In this document: positions 29,877 through 36,686 of the stretch, piece by piece
Layout of the letters: every line of letters begins with the position of its first letter
How positions within the stretch are numbered: position 1 is the first letter of the stretch
Assembly (NCBI RefSeq): GCF_010692325.1
Contig: NZ_JAAHHW010000044.1
Location: 1 to 52,266 of the forward strand
Reading direction: 5' to 3'
Source: Moorena sp. SIO3I8
GTDB taxonomy: Bacteria > Cyanobacteriota > Cyanobacteriia > Cyanobacteriales > Coleofasciculaceae
DNA length: 52,266 nt
Program-made: the position numbers and the translations under genes
Notes under the pieces: model-generated
Database searches by the model: none
What the model was told of the DNA's origin: nothing
What the model saw: only the letters and a program-made list of their open reading frames with translations

Positions 29877-30486
29877 CAGTTTCCCTCATAGATGAAATGG
29901 TGGCAGTAGTCGTGATTGGTGAGTCGTGATTGGTGAGTCGTGATTGGTATTTGTTAGTTCAAGTACACTCCTGCCTAGGAGGAGTGATTAGGACGTTTCA
30001 AGCTAGCTGTTGTTAGCCCTACCAAGCTCAAGACTCTTCCACTATATATTCATATTCAATACTAGAGCCTGGGATTACGGCCAAATCTTTGACAAAATTG
30101 GGCAGAATCCTCCGCTTATAACAGTTAGAGTCAAGAGGATATTAATGTCCTTGGTTAGTTCGACAGGAAACAGCTAATGACTGGGTTACCATGCCCAATC
30201 CCTGTTAATGCAATCAGCATCTCACCCTTAAGTCATATTATGTCTGCTTTAACAATTCCTCGGAAAGGTATAGTAAAATCAGAGGGTAAAAATTTTTTTT
30301 GCTTGTGCCAGTTTAATAACTGGCATATTAGTTAGTAACAAATTACTAATTTGTGATATTCAGCAACTATTATAATAGTTAGGGCGCACGTTTGTGCGCC
30401 CTAAAAATAGCGTTAATCTTCTGATGCAAGCGCTGTCTGTTGTTGAGAGCGCTTCGCTTCCCATCAATTAAGATTATTCGATGATC
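29877..30486. other. 610-bp intergenic with repeats and hairpin
   Basis: Holds three copies of a TCGTGATTGGTGAG unit at about 29910-29950, an AT-rich block at 30270-30300, and a GC-rich hairpin at 30379-30404. No gene is seen; it separates cell-wall genes from the dioxygenase cluster. Confidence 0.55.
30379..30404 (-). terminator. hairpin at 3' end of dioxygenase cluster
   Basis: TTAGGGCGCAC pairs with GTGCGCCCTAA around a 4-base loop, 83 bp past the stop of the last dioxygenase gene. There is no T-run on the minus strand, so termination is a guess. Confidence 0.5.
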
Positions 30487-31791
30487 TCAAACATAGCGAT
30501 CTGCGAGAATTTCCAAAGCACGGTCTGAGCATCCCATTAACCACAGGTTTGACATCCCAGTTTTCTCCCCTAGCAAAATTCGCCGTCTACAGCGGAAGGT
30601 TTCTTCCTCCAAGTAGGCTCCTAGCAAAGTTCGTTTCAGGGAAGGACTCCAGATACCGGTACGTCCATGGAGCACTCGCCAGTTGTCAACTACTAACACC
30701 TGTCCGGGAGTCAGTAGAAATTCGGCATTATAGTCAGGATCTTGTAAGAGTTGGGCAAATCTTCGGTAGGCTGTCAATAGGTCTTGAATTTTATCGTAGG
30801 AAACCTCTAGGGGTATCCTGGTGTTGTGGTTATACCGAATCTGATACACTTCTCCATTTTCATCCAAGTTAATTAGATGATTACGCCGGTAAGCTTCCCA
30901 TTCGTATTTCCGAGCGCTGGAATCATTTTCCGATAGTTTCTCCTCCACAGACAGTCGTCGGCGACCTGCTGGTATATATTCTGTGGTAAGTAGCTCAAAG
31001 AAGTAGGGGTTTTCTGTTTTGATTACCTCTGCTAATTTGAAACCATCAACGACGGTGGAATAGGCTTGTCTGTCGTTATCCGGGTTGTCGTAGAGGGTAC
31101 ATTGCAGAAATTGGATTCCAGTGGGAATATCGTAGGCAGTAACGTCTGTATGATTTCTTAAACGTCCCAATTGATAAGAATGTTGGATAGCCTGAGCAAC
31201 TGCGTTCTTTCTATCCATAGTAAATACATTGGTGGGATGATAACGTTGTCGTAAAGGCCCCACCCGTTCCACCAATGCCCGAAAGCTTTGTTCGTCATTT
31301 GGAGCATTCTCAATTACTGCTACCCCTAGTTCGACGAGCTGATTCAGGTAGGACAATAAAACGTCGTCATCATTCATCACCTCATGATAATCAAAATAAG
31401 AGATAGATACTGATGCATCCCAAAGTTGAGGTTTTGATTTTTGTTTAAGGGCTGGGTCATCGTAACAATGAACTCGTAGCCAGGAAGGATCGAATACACT
31501 GTGATGCCCTGTTTCTTGACCACCCCAGACAATATCCAAATTGCCTTCAGGATCAATTGTCACCTCTTGAGGAGTTGGGTTTAAAGGAATTTTGAGGAGG
31601 TCATGTCCACTATTATTGAGGCTTAAGGTATCTCGCTGAAAGCATTTAGGACAGCGACAGCTATCTAGGAGCCAGAGATGATGGTAAAAGCTTTGATGGC
31701 CATCTTTCCAAGTGATCTCTACACCATTGTCATGGGTTGCTATGGATTCGATGCGAAAAGAAGGTTTGAGTTGTCGAAGTAGCGTGGTCAT
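30487..31791 (-). CDS. gamma-butyrobetaine hydroxylase-like dioxygenase, copy 2
   Basis: A 434-aa Fe(II)/2-oxoglutarate dioxygenase of the GBBH/TMLH type. The N-terminal GBBH-like domain (DUF971 fold) has the zinc cysteines C45, C47 and C50 in CRCPKC and a histidine in TGHHSVFDPSWL. The TauD-type catalytic domain has the iron ligands H-T-D at about 215-217 (RNHTDV) and the distal histidine in VLHGRTGI. A C-terminal extension (MSNLWLMGCSDRALEILADR) is shared with copy 1 and is not typical of carnitine-pathway enzymes. It should hydroxylate a trimethylammonium or related acid; the substrate is unknown. It starts 48 bp after copy 1, with AGGAG upstream. Confidence 0.85.
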   Translation of the reverse strand: MTTLLRQLKPSFRIESIATHDNGVEITWKDGHQSFYHHLWLLDSCRCPKCFQRDTLSLNNSGHDLLKIPLNPTPQEVTIDPEGNLDIVWGGQETGHHSVFDPSWLRVHCYDDPALKQKSKPQLWDASVSISYFDYHEVMNDDDVLLSYLNQLVELGVAVIENAPNDEQSFRALVERVGPLRQRYHPTNVFTMDRKNAVAQAIQHSYQLGRLRNHTDVTAYDIPTGIQFLQCTLYDNPDNDRQAYSTVVDGFKLAEVIKTENPYFFELLTTEYIPAGRRRLSVEEKLSENDSSARKYEWEAYRRNHLINLDENGEVYQIRYNHNTRIPLEVSYDKIQDLLTAYRRFAQLLQDPDYNAEFLLTPGQVLVVDNWRVLHGRTGIWSPSLKRTLLGAYLEEETFRCRRRILLGEKTGMSNLWLMGCSDRALEILADRYV

Positions 31792-31839
31792 TTTAATTTC
31801 AAGCTCCTATTTATCAAGCTCCTAATGTATTTGGTTTCT

Positions 31840-33159
31840 TTAGATTGTGGTGCGGTCTGCCAGAATTTCTAAAGCACGGTCTGAGCATCCCATTAACCAG
31901 ATATCTGACATACCGCTTTTTTTGCCTAGTAACAGTCGCCGTCTGCTACGAAATGTTTCTGGTTTCATGTAGGCTCCCAGTAAAACTCGTCGCAGCTGAG
32001 GATTATGAATGGCGGTACGCCCGTGGAGTAATCGCCAGTTGTCGTTAACTAATACTTGTCCCGGAGCGATCAGAAATTCGGCGTTATATTCAGGAGCTTC
32101 AGCTAGTGCCGTAAATGCTTGGTAGGCTGCATATAAGTCTTGAATCTTATCAGGGGAAACCTCTAGTGGCACTCGGTCTTTTTCATGGTGACGAATCTGG
32201 TAGACTTCACCGGTTTCATCCAAATTAATTACATGCTGGCGATGATAAGTTTCCCATTGGTACTTCTTGGTGCCAATTTCATGCTTAGATACCTTTTCTT
32301 CTACACCAAGGCGACGGCGACCTGTTGGCACATACTCTGTGGTCAGCAACTCGAAGAATTTTGGCTGTTGGGTTCTGAGAACTTCGACAATTTTGAACCC
32401 ATCCACTAGGGTAGAATAAGCCTGTTTGTCATTGTCTGGGTTATCGTATTGGATACATCCGAGAAATTGCAGTCTGGGAGGAACGTTGTAAGATACATGG
32501 TCTGTGTGATTATCTAAACGTTTCATATACTGATAGGCGTGGTGAATATTCCCTGCCAGTTTGTTTGCTGTATCCAAGGTAAAGATATGGGTGGGATGAT
32601 ATCGTTCTTGGATCGGTCCAATCCGCTCTATCAGTGCCTGAAAACTTTCTCGATTCTTGGGCACGTTGTCAATGATGACTACTCCCAATTCCAGCATCTT
32701 GTCCAACCACAGCAACAGTGCCCAATCGTCTTTCATCACTTCGTGGTAATCAAAATGAGGGATGGACACTGATGAATCCCACAGTTGGGGTTTTCGTCGC
32801 TGTTTGAGGGCGGGGTCTGTTTGACAGTGAACTCGCAGCCAAGATGGATCGAATACACTGTGATGTCCAGGTTCTTGACCGCCCCAGACTATATCCAAAT
32901 TGCCTTCACGATCGACCTTGACCGCTTCAGTGATGGGATTGAGTGGCATTTTCAGGGGGTCATGTCCTTCCCCTTCTGAGCTGTTAAGGCTCAATGTATC
33001 CCGCTGGAAGCATTCGGGACAGTGGCAAGCATCCCGCAGCCAGAGGTTATGGTAAAAGCTGTGATGACCATCTTTCCAAGTGACTTGTACACCGTTGTTG
33101 GTCACTGCAACTGATTCGATCCGAAAAGCGGCTTTGAGTTGCCGAAGTAGGGTTGTCAT
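31840..33159 (-). CDS. gamma-butyrobetaine hydroxylase-like dioxygenase, copy 1
   Basis: A 439-aa paralog of the next gene, similar along its full length. C45, C47 and C50 (CHCPEC) with H99/H100 form the expected structural zinc site of the N-terminal domain. H218, D220 (NHTDH) and H379 (LLHGRT) form the iron triad; R390/R391 are placed to bind 2-oxoglutarate. The two copies differ around the substrate region (HVSYNVPPRL here, VTAYDIPTGI there), which suggests successive or alternative hydroxylations rather than redundancy. It follows panD by 47 bp on the same strand with AAGGTG upstream of the start. Confidence 0.85.
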   Translation of the reverse strand: MTTLLRQLKAAFRIESVAVTNNGVQVTWKDGHHSFYHNLWLRDACHCPECFQRDTLSLNSSEGEGHDPLKMPLNPITEAVKVDREGNLDIVWGGQEPGHHSVFDPSWLRVHCQTDPALKQRRKPQLWDSSVSIPHFDYHEVMKDDWALLLWLDKMLELGVVIIDNVPKNRESFQALIERIGPIQERYHPTHIFTLDTANKLAGNIHHAYQYMKRLDNHTDHVSYNVPPRLQFLGCIQYDNPDNDKQAYSTLVDGFKIVEVLRTQQPKFFELLTTEYVPTGRRRLGVEEKVSKHEIGTKKYQWETYHRQHVINLDETGEVYQIRHHEKDRVPLEVSPDKIQDLYAAYQAFTALAEAPEYNAEFLIAPGQVLVNDNWRLLHGRTAIHNPQLRRVLLGAYMKPETFRSRRRLLLGKKSGMSDIWLMGCSDRALEILADRTTI

Positions 33160-33206
33160 GTTTCACCTTTATCTTTTGTTTTACTTGGTTTCCATGTATT
33201 TGAGGA

Positions 33207-33424
33207 CTAGGCTTGAGCCCCCACCATTACCTTTGACTTAGACGTCAATTGTTTGCCGTTAGTGGTTTGATAGCCGTTGTATTCTAGTGTCTCTCCATTA
33301 GGGCTGAGAGTAGGGGTCAGAGTCTGGTAAAAAACTTCCTGACAGCAGTTGTTTTCGTCAGCAATCAGTACCCGCGCTTGGTGTCCGCTAGTCAAAATTT
33401 CAGCGCGATGAAGCGAAGCTTCCG
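33207..33424 (-). pseudogene. displaced 3' part of panD
   Basis: Bases 33207-33404 encode AEILTSGHQARVLIADENN and a tail, 65 residues in all. This fits the C-terminal end of the upstream decarboxylase (the strand that follows CDR), but it is in another frame because of a 26-bp insertion at 33405-33430. Without the insertion panD would be 161 residues. A start (MSQW) further upstream in this frame overlaps the first part and is probably unused. Confidence 0.7.
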
Positions 33425-33430
33425 CTAAAA
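33405..33430 (-). repeat. 26-bp palindromic repeat interrupting panD
   Basis: The core contains GCGGAAGCTTCGCTTC, a near palindrome, and is flanked by a 5-bp direct duplication (GCGAT on the plus strand at 33405-33409 and 33431-33435), like a target duplication. Removing 26 bp joins CDR directly to AEIL in one frame. Confidence 0.75.
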
Positions 33431-33718
33431 GCGATCGCATTGCTCGTTTGCCCAGATAATCAAGGTATCTCCCTCTTTGCACAGTAGCGCTCCCCCTCCA
33501 TTGGGACATATTTGTCCTGAACCTGCTTCTCCTGGCAACACATAGGTTGACCAGCGATTGCCATTGTCAATGTTGACAATTTCTACTTCTTCGAGGGGTA
33601 AAATCCCTACCTGTGCCAGCAAGTCGGAGTCAATCGTGACACTGCCCACATAGTGGCGGTTTGCCTCAGTCACACGCACTCGATGTAGCTTGGCGTGCAT
33701 TAGTTTGATGGTCGCCAT
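33425..33718 (-). CDS. panD: aspartate 1-decarboxylase (PanD-type), 3' truncated
   Basis: A 97-aa protein that aligns with PanD from its start ([21 protein letters not shown]). All active-site residues are present: K10, H12, Y23, the G25-S26 self-cleavage site that yields the pyruvoyl group, R55, T58 and Y59; the [12 protein letters not shown] strand also fits. PanD makes beta-alanine from aspartate. The frame stops at TAG soon after CDR because of a repeat insertion, so the final strand and helix (usual length 115-130) are lost unless ribosomes shift. GGAGGA lies just upstream of the ATG. Being second in a cluster with methyltransferase and GBBH-like genes, it may serve secondary rather than pantothenate metabolism. 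Confidence 0.8.
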
Positions 33719-34180
33719 GATTTATCCTCCATTGAGTTTAATGAATTAAAATTCAATTGACTTGAACGAGCCTATTTCTGGACTTAGCCATTGGCATTTT
33801 ACGATCTCTATTTGAGATTGCTATACCATCGCTCCAACAATCACCAAAAACCTAAATCACTTCGGTTAATCAGTGATTTATGAGTCTCGAAATACGGATT
33901 TTTTCTCGTCTGCCATGATTACTAAATAGGCGATTTTTAGCAGCTATTCAGTAATAGAAGTTGACACATTTTTTGATACATCACTATTTTCATGAAAATA
34001 CATCGATTTACCTTTCTCCCTCCCGCCCTATCCCTTTCTATCCATTGAAATAGCCAGTTTAACAGTTACTTAACTGGCGCTCTAGCTCCTTTAGAAGCGG
34101 CTAGGGGAAATACTTGCACTTCAAATTATATAAAATCATCTGTTTCTATCCATTCCGTGCTGTGTTTGCTATCTATATTC
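33719..34180. other. 462-bp intergenic upstream of panD
   Basis: AT-rich, with no open frame of note. It likely carries the promoter for panD and the two dioxygenase genes and the end of the methyltransferase/AllA-like transcript. I cannot point to a convincing -35/-10 pair. Confidence 0.45.
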
Positions 34181-34786
34181 TCAGTCTTCTTCAGGTTTAC
34201 GAAGGGGAATCTTTAGACAAGTATCTTGCTCCTTCAACAATAGACAATCTACGGTAGCATAGATACTGCCTTGTTTATTTTTATAGACTACTTCTCCAGA
34301 CAGTGGTAAGGGAGCTGTGTGCCATACTCCAGGATGAATTGATATGCCGTAACTACCATCAGAGTAAAGCGCTACAAAATCTTCTGCTTTGACATTGTCC
34401 CCAGGAGGCGCTAATAAAAAGATGCTAGGTTCACCATTTTTAGGAATAAAAGCCTCTCCTGCATCTAGATGGGCGCTAAGCCAATGCACTAGCACATAGT
34501 TAGAGTTAGTTTCAGGATCAACTACAGCCTTTCCAGTTGCACCACCGCGAGCATTTTTATGGTCAGCGGAAAGCACCGTAGAACCACGCCAATATACTTT
34601 GAATTCGTCTTCAATAAATGTACCATAACCCCCCCTAGCAATAAGAGGTCGTTTCCCTGGGTTTGGCCATTTACACAACTCTATTTCAACATCTTCAAAA
34701 TCCGTGAATACATTTCCTAATCCTTCAGCATTTTTTGAGTTTAGCTTTTTTAATGGAACGTCATAGTATTTGCATGGTGTAGCCAT
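34181..34786 (-). CDS. ureidoglycolate lyase (AllA)-like cupin
   Basis: A 201-aa protein. The C-terminal half has the AllA pattern: AGEAFIPKNGEPSIFLLAPPGDNVKAEDF, then SDGSYGISIHPGVWHTAPLPL, matching the AFIP...G and GVxxxxGxWHxPLLPL segments of ureidoglycolate lyases. AllA releases urea from ureidoglycolate in purine breakdown; here no other allantoin genes are near, so a recruited role on an amide, ureido or imidate group is more likely. It begins 24 bp after the methyltransferase stop with AAGGGA upstream, so the two are cotranscribed. AllA proteins are usually around 160-170 aa, so this one is longer at the N-terminus. Confidence 0.7.
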   Translation of the reverse strand: MATPCKYYDVPLKKLNSKNAEGLGNVFTDFEDVEIELCKWPNPGKRPLIARGGYGTFIEDEFKVYWRGSTVLSADHKNARGGATGKAVVDPETNSNYVLVHWLSAHLDAGEAFIPKNGEPSIFLLAPPGDNVKAEDFVALYSDGSYGISIHPGVWHTAPLPLSGEVVYKNKQGSIYATVDCLLLKEQDTCLKIPLRKPEED

Positions 34787-34810
34787 GATTTTCCCTTAAA
34801 CTATCAGCAA

Positions 34811-36205
34811 TTAGTGCTTTTTAAGCACGAGAGCAACCATTGGTTCTGTTTCAAAGATGTTAAACTCTACTCGATCGAGTATACTCCATGACAGCTCTTC
34901 GAGAATCTCTTGTAATGAATCGTTGCTTTCGTAGTAGTCAACTCGCAGGGTGAGGACAAAATATCCTCCAGACTTCAATAGTTCGAATAGGTTTCGCAAC
35001 CCTTTAGGATGGGCGTGACCAAAGGTGAATACCCCCAACACCACAATCCCGTCGAACGCCTCAGGAGTAGAGAAGGTTAGAGGTTCTGCCACGTTCCCTT
35101 GGTGCAAGGCCGTGTAAACTTGCTTCTTCCTAGCTACCTCCAGCATTTCCTCGGAGAAGTCAACTGCTGTAATGTTGGTGTATCCTAGGTCTGCCAGAGC
35201 CTCACCTACCATTCCTGTACCTGCTCCAACATCAAGAATGCTTGCTGCTTTATTTGGCAGTACCTTTGCCAGAGCCCTAGCGGATAGAACGGGAGAGCAA
35301 CGATAGGTCTCGTCTAAGTCAGCATCGTAAATGGTCGCCCAAGCATTGTACTTATCTTTTAAAGTTTTTTCATCATTAGTTCCGTAGATCCACGACACGC
35401 GATCGCTTACCTTTTGACAGCGATAGAAACTCCATCCGAGTTCCCGAGCTGCAATCGCCTCGCACATCTTATTATAGGAAGCGCTAAGTTGCGGATACTT
35501 GCTCAGAGCTAGCTCTGACAACAGTTGGTAGCTCTTATTTAGGTGTTCGCTCAAGTCTTTAGCGTCCAACACCATCAAGCCAATTTCACTGAGTGTTTTT
35601 GCGTAGGACTCATAGCTAAATGTTGGTTCAAACAGTAGTCGTTGATAAACGTGCTTTTGGCCTTCTGCGCTGATCTCGGACACTGGCGTGATCAGATCAT
35701 CGAATAGGAAGATGCCTTGTTCTTGAAGAACACGGTAAATCTCCTTCAGAGCTAGCTCCCGCTGGTGGACATGGTAAAGGGTGGCTTGGCTCCAGACATG
35801 GGTAAAGGAATTGTCTGAGAAAGGTAGGCTAGTTACTGATGCTTTCTGAAAGGACAGGCGTAGGGAGGGATACTCCTGAGCTAATGCCTTGGCATTGTCA
35901 ACCCGGACTGCACTGATGTCAATGCCCACAACTTCACATCCTGTCTGCTGGGCTAGCCAGATAGCGGTGTTGCCGTTGCCGCAACCGATATCAAGTACCC
36001 GAGATTCAGTAGTCAGCCCACTGCAGGCTAGCATATATTCATTCCAACGGTGGCAAGCTGGGACAAAGTCTTGAGCACGAGCGTCCGCTAAGTTTTCAAA
36101 ATAGCCCCAATGTAAACTGCCTTCAGAATCCCAGAAGCTACGATACATGCTGTCTTCGTGATCGTAAAACGCTTCTGTGTCCGCTTCTGTATATTTTTGT
36201 GTCAT
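34811..36205 (-). CDS. two-domain SAM-dependent methyltransferase
   Basis: A 464-aa protein with two class I methyltransferase domains in one chain. Domain 1 (about 15-260) has motif I VLDIGCGNGN and the motif IV-like SLPFSDNSFTHVWSQATLYHV, in the style of sarcosine/dimethylglycine or phosphoethanolamine N-methyltransferases. Domain 2 (about 280-464) has ILDVGAGTGMVGEAL and FDGIVVLGVFTFGHA, like Williams-Beuren/UbiE-type enzymes. Fused tandem domains often carry out successive N-methylations. It is first of five genes on this strand and divergent from ctaA. The substrate is unknown. Confidence 0.85.
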   Translation of the reverse strand: MTQKYTEADTEAFYDHEDSMYRSFWDSEGSLHWGYFENLADARAQDFVPACHRWNEYMLACSGLTTESRVLDIGCGNGNTAIWLAQQTGCEVVGIDISAVRVDNAKALAQEYPSLRLSFQKASVTSLPFSDNSFTHVWSQATLYHVHQRELALKEIYRVLQEQGIFLFDDLITPVSEISAEGQKHVYQRLLFEPTFSYESYAKTLSEIGLMVLDAKDLSEHLNKSYQLLSELALSKYPQLSASYNKMCEAIAARELGWSFYRCQKVSDRVSWIYGTNDEKTLKDKYNAWATIYDADLDETYRCSPVLSARALAKVLPNKAASILDVGAGTGMVGEALADLGYTNITAVDFSEEMLEVARKKQVYTALHQGNVAEPLTFSTPEAFDGIVVLGVFTFGHAHPKGLRNLFELLKSGGYFVLTLRVDYYESNDSLQEILEELSWSILDRVEFNIFETEPMVALVLKKH

Positions 36206-36686
36206 GTTGTTCGTCTAAGTTGAGACTTACAAGTCAGACTTACTAGATTTTCAAGGAAATTCCCTTCATGAGAGTAAAATCATAAGTGCTCGTTTCTTGA
36301 AATACTTCATATTTACTTCATATTTCCTTGATATTCTCCTTCATAATTCCCTGGCCTTTTGGCCAAAAGGCCAAGGTCAATCGCAATTTCAAGACTAAGC
36401 TACTGGCACAGTTAATCTATTTAGGGCTTTTTTTATCAACTATTAACACGTCCAAAACTTGTCGAAACCCTTAAGTTAGTGCGATCTGAATTATCTAAGC
36501 TGGGGAAGCTTTTTTTTTCCAAGTCTCCTGCTGTCGTCATTTACATAAACACCAAAATAATGATAACCATTAACAAAAACCTGTAGCCTAGTTGAGCAGC
36601 TGTTAGCCTAAGCTAGAAATAAGAGGCATGTGTTCTTCTTAATCATCTAGGCATTGCCACTATTACTGAAGCTGTTCACCAAATCT
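36206..36686. other. 480-bp divergent intergenic with 22-bp palindrome
   Basis: Contains a perfect palindrome (TGGCCTTTTGG then CCAAAAGGCCA) at 36352-36373 and three ACTTCATATTT-like units at about 36303-36325. It separates the methyltransferase and the copper ATPase, so operators for both may be here. Confidence 0.5.
36352..36373. promoter_or_regulatory. 22-bp perfect palindrome
   Basis: TGGCCTTTTGG followed by CCAAAAGGCCA, self-complementary over 22 bp, about 150 bp upstream of the methyltransferase start. It could be an operator, or a fragment of the TTGGCC-type dispersed repeat also seen near 45757 and 44940. Confidence 0.6.

Follow-up and report, generated by a model that had tools for sequence, protein, structure and literature searches.

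The window, by which we mean the whole 52,266-nucleotide stretch analyzed from Moorena sp. SIO3I8, contains a discrete five-gene cassette that is absent as a block from one congener, and encodes a two-domain methyltransferase (MT), an AllA-like cupin, the aspartate decarboxylase PanD, and two dioxygenases (GBBH1 and GBBH2). Co-function of the cassette genes is well supported, and the cassette probably makes a methylated, oxidized β-alanine derivative. We would give a probability of about 40% to the fuller reading, suggested by the sequences, that a β-alanine-derived zwitterion is formed via PanD, MT, GBBH, and AllA steps, and the identity of the product stands at less than even odds. Literature searches, within the portions of the sources that were accessible, yielded no published description of this cluster. 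The original prediction of five same-strand genes was right as to the strand, all five lying on the minus strand of the window (from a genome of 8.0 Mb in 510 contigs), but it had overlooked a 26-bp insert that breaks the panD frame. The features are as follows.

34811..36205, minus strand: MT, 464 aa, two SAM-methyltransferase domains, with homologues in relatives
34181..34786, minus strand: AllA-like (PF04115) cupin, candidate hydroxy-acid lyase/decarboxylase of the DsyD type
33425..33718, minus strand: panD frame, 97 aa, Gly-Ser self-cleavage site kept, C-terminal part outside the frame
33410..33435, minus strand: panD-breaking insert, 26 bp, a piece of a 29-bp repeat
33207..33409, minus strand: remainder of panD, out of frame, from alignment to congeners
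31840..33159, minus strand: GBBH1, Fe(II)/2OG dioxygenase, TauD plus GBBH-like N domain
30487..31791, minus strand: GBBH2, dioxygenase paralogue of GBBH1
30401..36606, no strand assigned: whole block, present in the window genome, missing from congener G294

In congener G294, 1.7 kb of DNA with a TnpB-like ORF replaces positions 30,401–36,606 of the window, the flanks matching at about 94–96%, and a readily lost biosynthetic cassette is the best explanation of the block. In congener G292 the block is intact. Of 22 gene comparisons with relatives (PanD being compared over 90 codons), 19 give dN/dS values between 0 and 0.29; the other three, namely two MT comparisons with saturated dS and the PanD comparison between the window and G292 (0.64 on three changes), lend no support.

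Because of the insert, the window panD stops after 97 codons, the PanD proteins of two congeners without the insert being 157 and 161 aa long. The 29-bp repeat (window 33410–33438, beginning GCGATCGC) occurs in 16 copies in the genome, including that in panD, when up to three mismatches are allowed (reversed control, zero). The Gly-Ser self-processing site is found in 20 of 20 aligned PanD sequences, the window copy included, and since this site survives, the truncated protein may retain residual activity. Against TIGR00223 (aspartate 1-decarboxylase, cut-off 106 bits), the truncated protein scores 105.1, below the cut-off, and its orthologue in M. bouillonii 110.6. A search of the window genome for a second PanD found none, the cassette copy being the sole match; the genome may have lost the entry step, or may be fed by β-alanine from elsewhere. 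In Moorena sp. SIO3H5, panD is present without its 5′ half.

Co-occurrence of the genes in other genomes, set beforehand as the test of the original prediction, was found in 13 named-genome loci chosen by AllA. A scan of the genome collection with an AllA alignment, in which the best 80 of 147 relatives were kept, gave 13 cyanobacterial loci at 70–98% AllA identity and 67 distant loci. The former, selected at an AllA identity of at least 70% and with members scored by tblastn, belong to Moorena, Hormoscilla, Okeania, Symploca, Crocosphaera, Paraprochloron, and Calothrix, and contain AllA in 13, GBBH1 in 12, PanD in 11, MT traces in 11, GBBH2 in 10, and an asparagine-synthetase homologue (AsnB) in 8, these counts being lower bounds because several contigs stop close to the cluster. 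Where the set is full, the order is most often MT-PanD-AsnB-AllA-GBBH1-GBBH2. AllA stands ahead of PanD, with no AsnB, in the Moorena and Crocosphaera loci, the latter also being without GBBH; some Hormoscilla and Symploca loci likewise lack AsnB and keep other genes, and several loci that retain GBBH and AllA have a broken or absent MT, PanD, or both. When 57 relatives of the window genome were searched with GBBH2, seven (window genome included) gave matches of at least 62% identity, and all seven also hold the cluster MT, which is truncated in M. bouillonii. A draw of 386 genomes across the phylum yielded GBBH2 at E 1e-100 from the window genome alone; at E 1e-150, MT turned up there and in just one other genome, G355, where it is broken. 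Such draws show rarity only, because most genomes known to carry the cluster were left out. Of the 354 plasmid records matched by MT, none has a single place covering 80% of it.

Further genes stand between GBBH1 and GBBH2 in a few loci. Three have a PhyH gene there (L088:12004-13188, L080:12244-13185, and L085:13517-14572; two of the three were scanned), in which the customary HxD iron motif reads HQN, and the one scanned against NCBIfam, that of L088, resembles chlorinating enzymes at 152 bits, below the 226-bit cut-off. At one other locus, the intervening gene matches a radical-SAM model weakly, with a score under the cut-off.

The MT N domain is related to sarcosine/dimethylglycine methyltransferases, although its score of 92.8 bits against NF041675 (sarcosine/dimethylglycine N-methyltransferase) is far under the cut-off of 550, and the C domain is a second class I methyltransferase. 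By eye, both domains contain what we take to be the glycine-rich SAM-binding motif. Full-length homologues at 65–68% identity are present in 6 of the 13 loci, and the protein is shortened to 128 aa in M. bouillonii; a structure model of MT was poor (pLDDT 58) and was not used. That PanD and the methyltransferase act together, as originally proposed, is backed by a fusion protein of Symploca SIO1C2, PanD::MT::MT with 674 aa (L067:10644-12668), and by an operon of the order TauD-PanD-class I aminotransferase-MT-MT, which two Moorena genomes contain and which in M. bouillonii has a HalD-like gene nearby; in G355, PanD adjoins a degraded MT. As PanD and the MT family thus meet in three further arrangements, one of them a fusion, the pairing favors β-alanine as the compound that would be methylated. 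Among 31 control panD loci, an MT-like gene lies within 3 kb in two, both weak (25%, E 1e-6; 33%, E 1e-12), and an additional panD locus (L164) gave no MT match. These controls were drawn from 42 PanD matches in relatives, the other 10 being cassette, operon, or fusion copies; the PanD ORF was recognized in 30 of the 31, some loci being cut by contig ends. A distance of about 0.7 kb separates the Symploca fusion from the cassette MT; the fusion adjoins a 2Fe–2S protein.

The substrates of the MT-N family probably vary, since its members also adjoin class III aminotransferases. At locus L159 on contig C179 of the window genome (also at L163, L165, and L166), a single-domain methyltransferase, 61–65% identical to the MT N domain, is found next to two class III aminotransferases that look EctB-like. 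A D-glutamate cyclase-like gene is present in L159 (scanned) and in L163, L165, and L166 (by eye), and a TauD-family gene in L166; such loci are a second candidate betaine-type cluster. Locus L076, on contig C39 of the window genome, groups a homologue of the MT C domain with a decarboxylase of the Orn/Lys/Arg type, a pair of PhyH genes, and a CmcI-like methyltransferase.

The Fe/2OG chemistry of GBBH1 and GBBH2 is well supported by their sequences; their substrate is not. The two proteins are 67% identical, the GBBH2 orthologues of relatives group separately, and the 12 cluster dioxygenases that were aligned all have HTD and HGR, the segments carrying the Fe(II) ligands (HxD...H). Both score below the cut-off of TIGR02409 (gamma-butyrobetaine dioxygenase; 222.5 and 228.2 bits versus 414.75), and the only solved relatives found were BBOX, TmpA, and DfmD. 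Using residue numbers that we take to be those of the aromatic cage around the trimethylammonium group, sequence alignment alone indicates two positions changed relative to BBOX/TmpA and two tyrosines kept. All 12 cluster dioxygenases carry His-Pro at the site of the TmpA Tyr-Gly; the second position is Val/Ile in one alignment and Asn/Asp/His in another, the alignments being one residue apart. With two cage positions differing, the original proposal that these enzymes act on trimethylammonium acids is not established. 2-Trimethylaminoethylphosphonate (TMAEP) is β-alanine betaine with a phosphonate in place of the carboxylate. It is the compound used by TmpA and DfmD, according to the accessible part of the source (PMC9296572).

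The AllA fold is present in the AllA-like protein, and despite this fold, a role in allantoin/ureidoglycolate metabolism was rejected, the scores being far under the AllA equivalog cut-offs (32.2 bits at best versus 230 for ureidoglycolate lyase AllA, the best-scoring NCBIfam model). The alignment used for structure comprised 23 of the 29 first-listed sequences, L096 (stop) having been dropped together with L095, L098, L106, L133, and L146, which were left unchecked. The earlier suggestion that the gene has been recruited looks correct, and a closer precedent than allantoin metabolism is the DsyGD protein, in which PF04115 is the DsyD decarboxylase domain acting on DMSHB (PMC11306096, in the portion available). 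When the D domain of a DsyGD-like protein of 491 aa is compared with 51 sequences, the window protein is its top BLAST match, at 36%; in a tree of 88 sequences in all (AllA ORFs under 300 aa), the node uniting DsyD with the cluster AllA has a support of 0.15, too low to place the window protein with DsyD. Possession of a PF04115 domain by itself says little, because 268 of 388 genomes of the order have one (most open frames about 160–250 aa among the matches listed). Of the 67 distant AllA-like loci, 12 are near aminoethylphosphonate-like or TmpA/TmpB-type genes, labeled by eye with marker proteins named from three distant loci plus L003 and excluding loci with only an ABC-ATPase or DAO match; BLAST located the AllA ORF in 50 of the 67. 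In Oceanospirillum beijerinckii (L094:8441-10633), the AllA-like domain belongs to a 730-aa ORF, whose N-terminal part appears aminotransferase-like by eye.

PanD catalyzes the decarboxylation of aspartate to β-alanine, and this would be the first step of the predicted pathway, in which we infer every catalytic step, each substrate, and the step order. The two-domain MT would then N-methylate β-alanine, up to β-alanine betaine, and hydroxylation of this product by one or both of the GBBH-like dioxygenases would follow, by analogy to TmpA at the carbon beside the acid group. The AllA-like cupin, whose chemistry in the cassette is speculative, might cleave or decarboxylate the resulting 2-hydroxy acid in the way DsyD acts on DMSHB, and in relatives AsnB may amidate a carboxylate, so that the end product would be a small zwitterion derived from β-alanine. 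β-Alanine betaine becomes the natural candidate when the PanD–MT linkages are taken together with a methyltransferase/aspartate-decarboxylase fusion of the red alga Porphyra umbilicalis, which showed neither MSM nor DDC activity in the part of the study available (PMC11306096), and with the accumulation of β-alanine betaine by the red alga Pyropia haitanensis, as stated in the accessible part of that report (PMC12113544). The originally proposed product, a simply hydroxylated β-alanine betaine, is not established. Hydroxylation of the betaine beside its carboxylate by a GBBH-like enzyme, followed by decarboxylation by a stand-alone DsyD-type AllA homologue, would amount to a new onium-acid pathway that shortens the betaine chain, with AsnB amidation and PhyH-type tailoring in some strains, and we regard this specific version as a long shot. 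Dysibetaine, an idea prompted by sponge-associated hosts, was also considered as the product and rejected, the literature search giving chemistry and nothing on genes.

Three other explanations were weighed against this reading. One is a sulfonium (DMSP-like) route, in which MT would S-methylate a methylthio hydroxy acid, the AllA-like protein would decarboxylate it as a stand-alone DsyD, and PanD and the dioxygenases would be tailoring or incidental. Besides the PF04115 domain shared with DsyD and the BLAST match described above, this is favored by the fact that DsyGD was assayed from Symploca and Oscillatoria; however, in the same source, as far as it was available, neither the Gynuella DsyD domain on its own nor either of two algal DsyD-like proteins of a single domain showed DMSHB decarboxylase activity, and the red-algal fusion lacked both DMSP activities (PMC11306096). 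Moreover, no methionine aminotransferase or MTOB reductase is found among the conserved cluster members, and the MT N domain and the methyltransferase of the DsyGD-like protein share only 28% identity over 167 aa, for which reason an assignment of MT as DsyG was rejected. We consider the sulfonium route improbable. An aspartate/asparagine-amide pathway, in which AsnB would amidate aspartate or a β-alanine derivative, the dioxygenases (with PhyH in some strains) would oxidize the amide, and MT would perform a late N- or O-methylation, giving a modified β-amino amide and no betaine, draws on the presence of AsnB in 8 of the 13 loci and on a GBBH pocket unlike that of betaine hydroxylases. The one AsnB copy scanned, from Symploca SIO1C2, scores 577 bits, over the NF006949 cut-off of 499, and AsnB stays with GBBH1 in two copies (L072 and L073) that lack MT and PanD, the genomes concerned (G292 and G296) each having a main cluster without AsnB elsewhere. 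Nevertheless, AsnB is missing from the loci noted above, the PanD–MT pairing recurs without it, and the window genome has no AsnB orthologue, its one match (47% over query residues 1–160) lying in a 649-aa frame. In our predicted pathway AsnB has no clear role. The amide pathway seems unlikely to us.

It may also be asked whether PanD is a housekeeping coenzyme A gene placed here by chance, the window cassette being a decaying island with no present function. Cluster PanD is 63–74% identical to 12 of the 30 control PanDs, and given this similarity it may have been recruited from coenzyme A synthesis or may still be shared with it; it is also the sole PanD match of the genome, and the breakage of panD in the window and of MT in M. 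bouillonii points in the same direction. Against decay stand the mostly low dN/dS values and the association of PanD with the MT family in several arrangements, compared with the two weak cases among the 31 controls. The absence of any PanD match from 14 of 50 good-quality relatives (36 having one; 57 relatives in all) likewise speaks against it, and because of this absence these 14 may have another source of β-alanine or pantothenate. A decaying island seems improbable to us, and the β-alanine-derived zwitterion is the preferred reading.

The cassette is worth comparing with known systems that use similar enzymes. Glycine betaine synthesis by GSMT/DMT in Aphanothece halophytica also involves two SAM methyltransferase activities, and the MT N domain is related to the SDMT model; β-alanine betaine, the proposed product of the first half of the cassette pathway, is made in plants by Limonium BANMT (both from the available part of PMC9699165). 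In contrast to GSMT/DMT, the cassette MT is far below the SDMT cut-off and has PanD, AllA-like, and dioxygenase genes alongside, and in contrast to BANMT, the cassette consists of several bacterial enzymes with their own PanD. DsyGD, the DMSP synthase of Gynuella, Symploca, and Oscillatoria, likewise brings a methyltransferase together with a PF04115 domain, whereas the cassette has separate genes, a distantly related MT, and the extra PanD and dioxygenases; the DsyGD authors found no single-domain DsyD, according to the part of their paper available (PMC11306096). TmpA and DfmD of TMAEP metabolism share GBBH-like dioxygenases with the cassette, for which carboxylate chemistry is proposed instead and whose GBBH1 and GBBH2 have changed cage positions. 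Altogether, the cassette is conserved yet patchy in marine cyanobacteria, and its product could be a betaine-type metabolite not described before. The cassette is a candidate for β-alanine betaine synthesis in bacteria, and its AllA-like protein is a possible single-domain relative of DsyD, whose step, the decarboxylation of DMSHB, remains poorly known.
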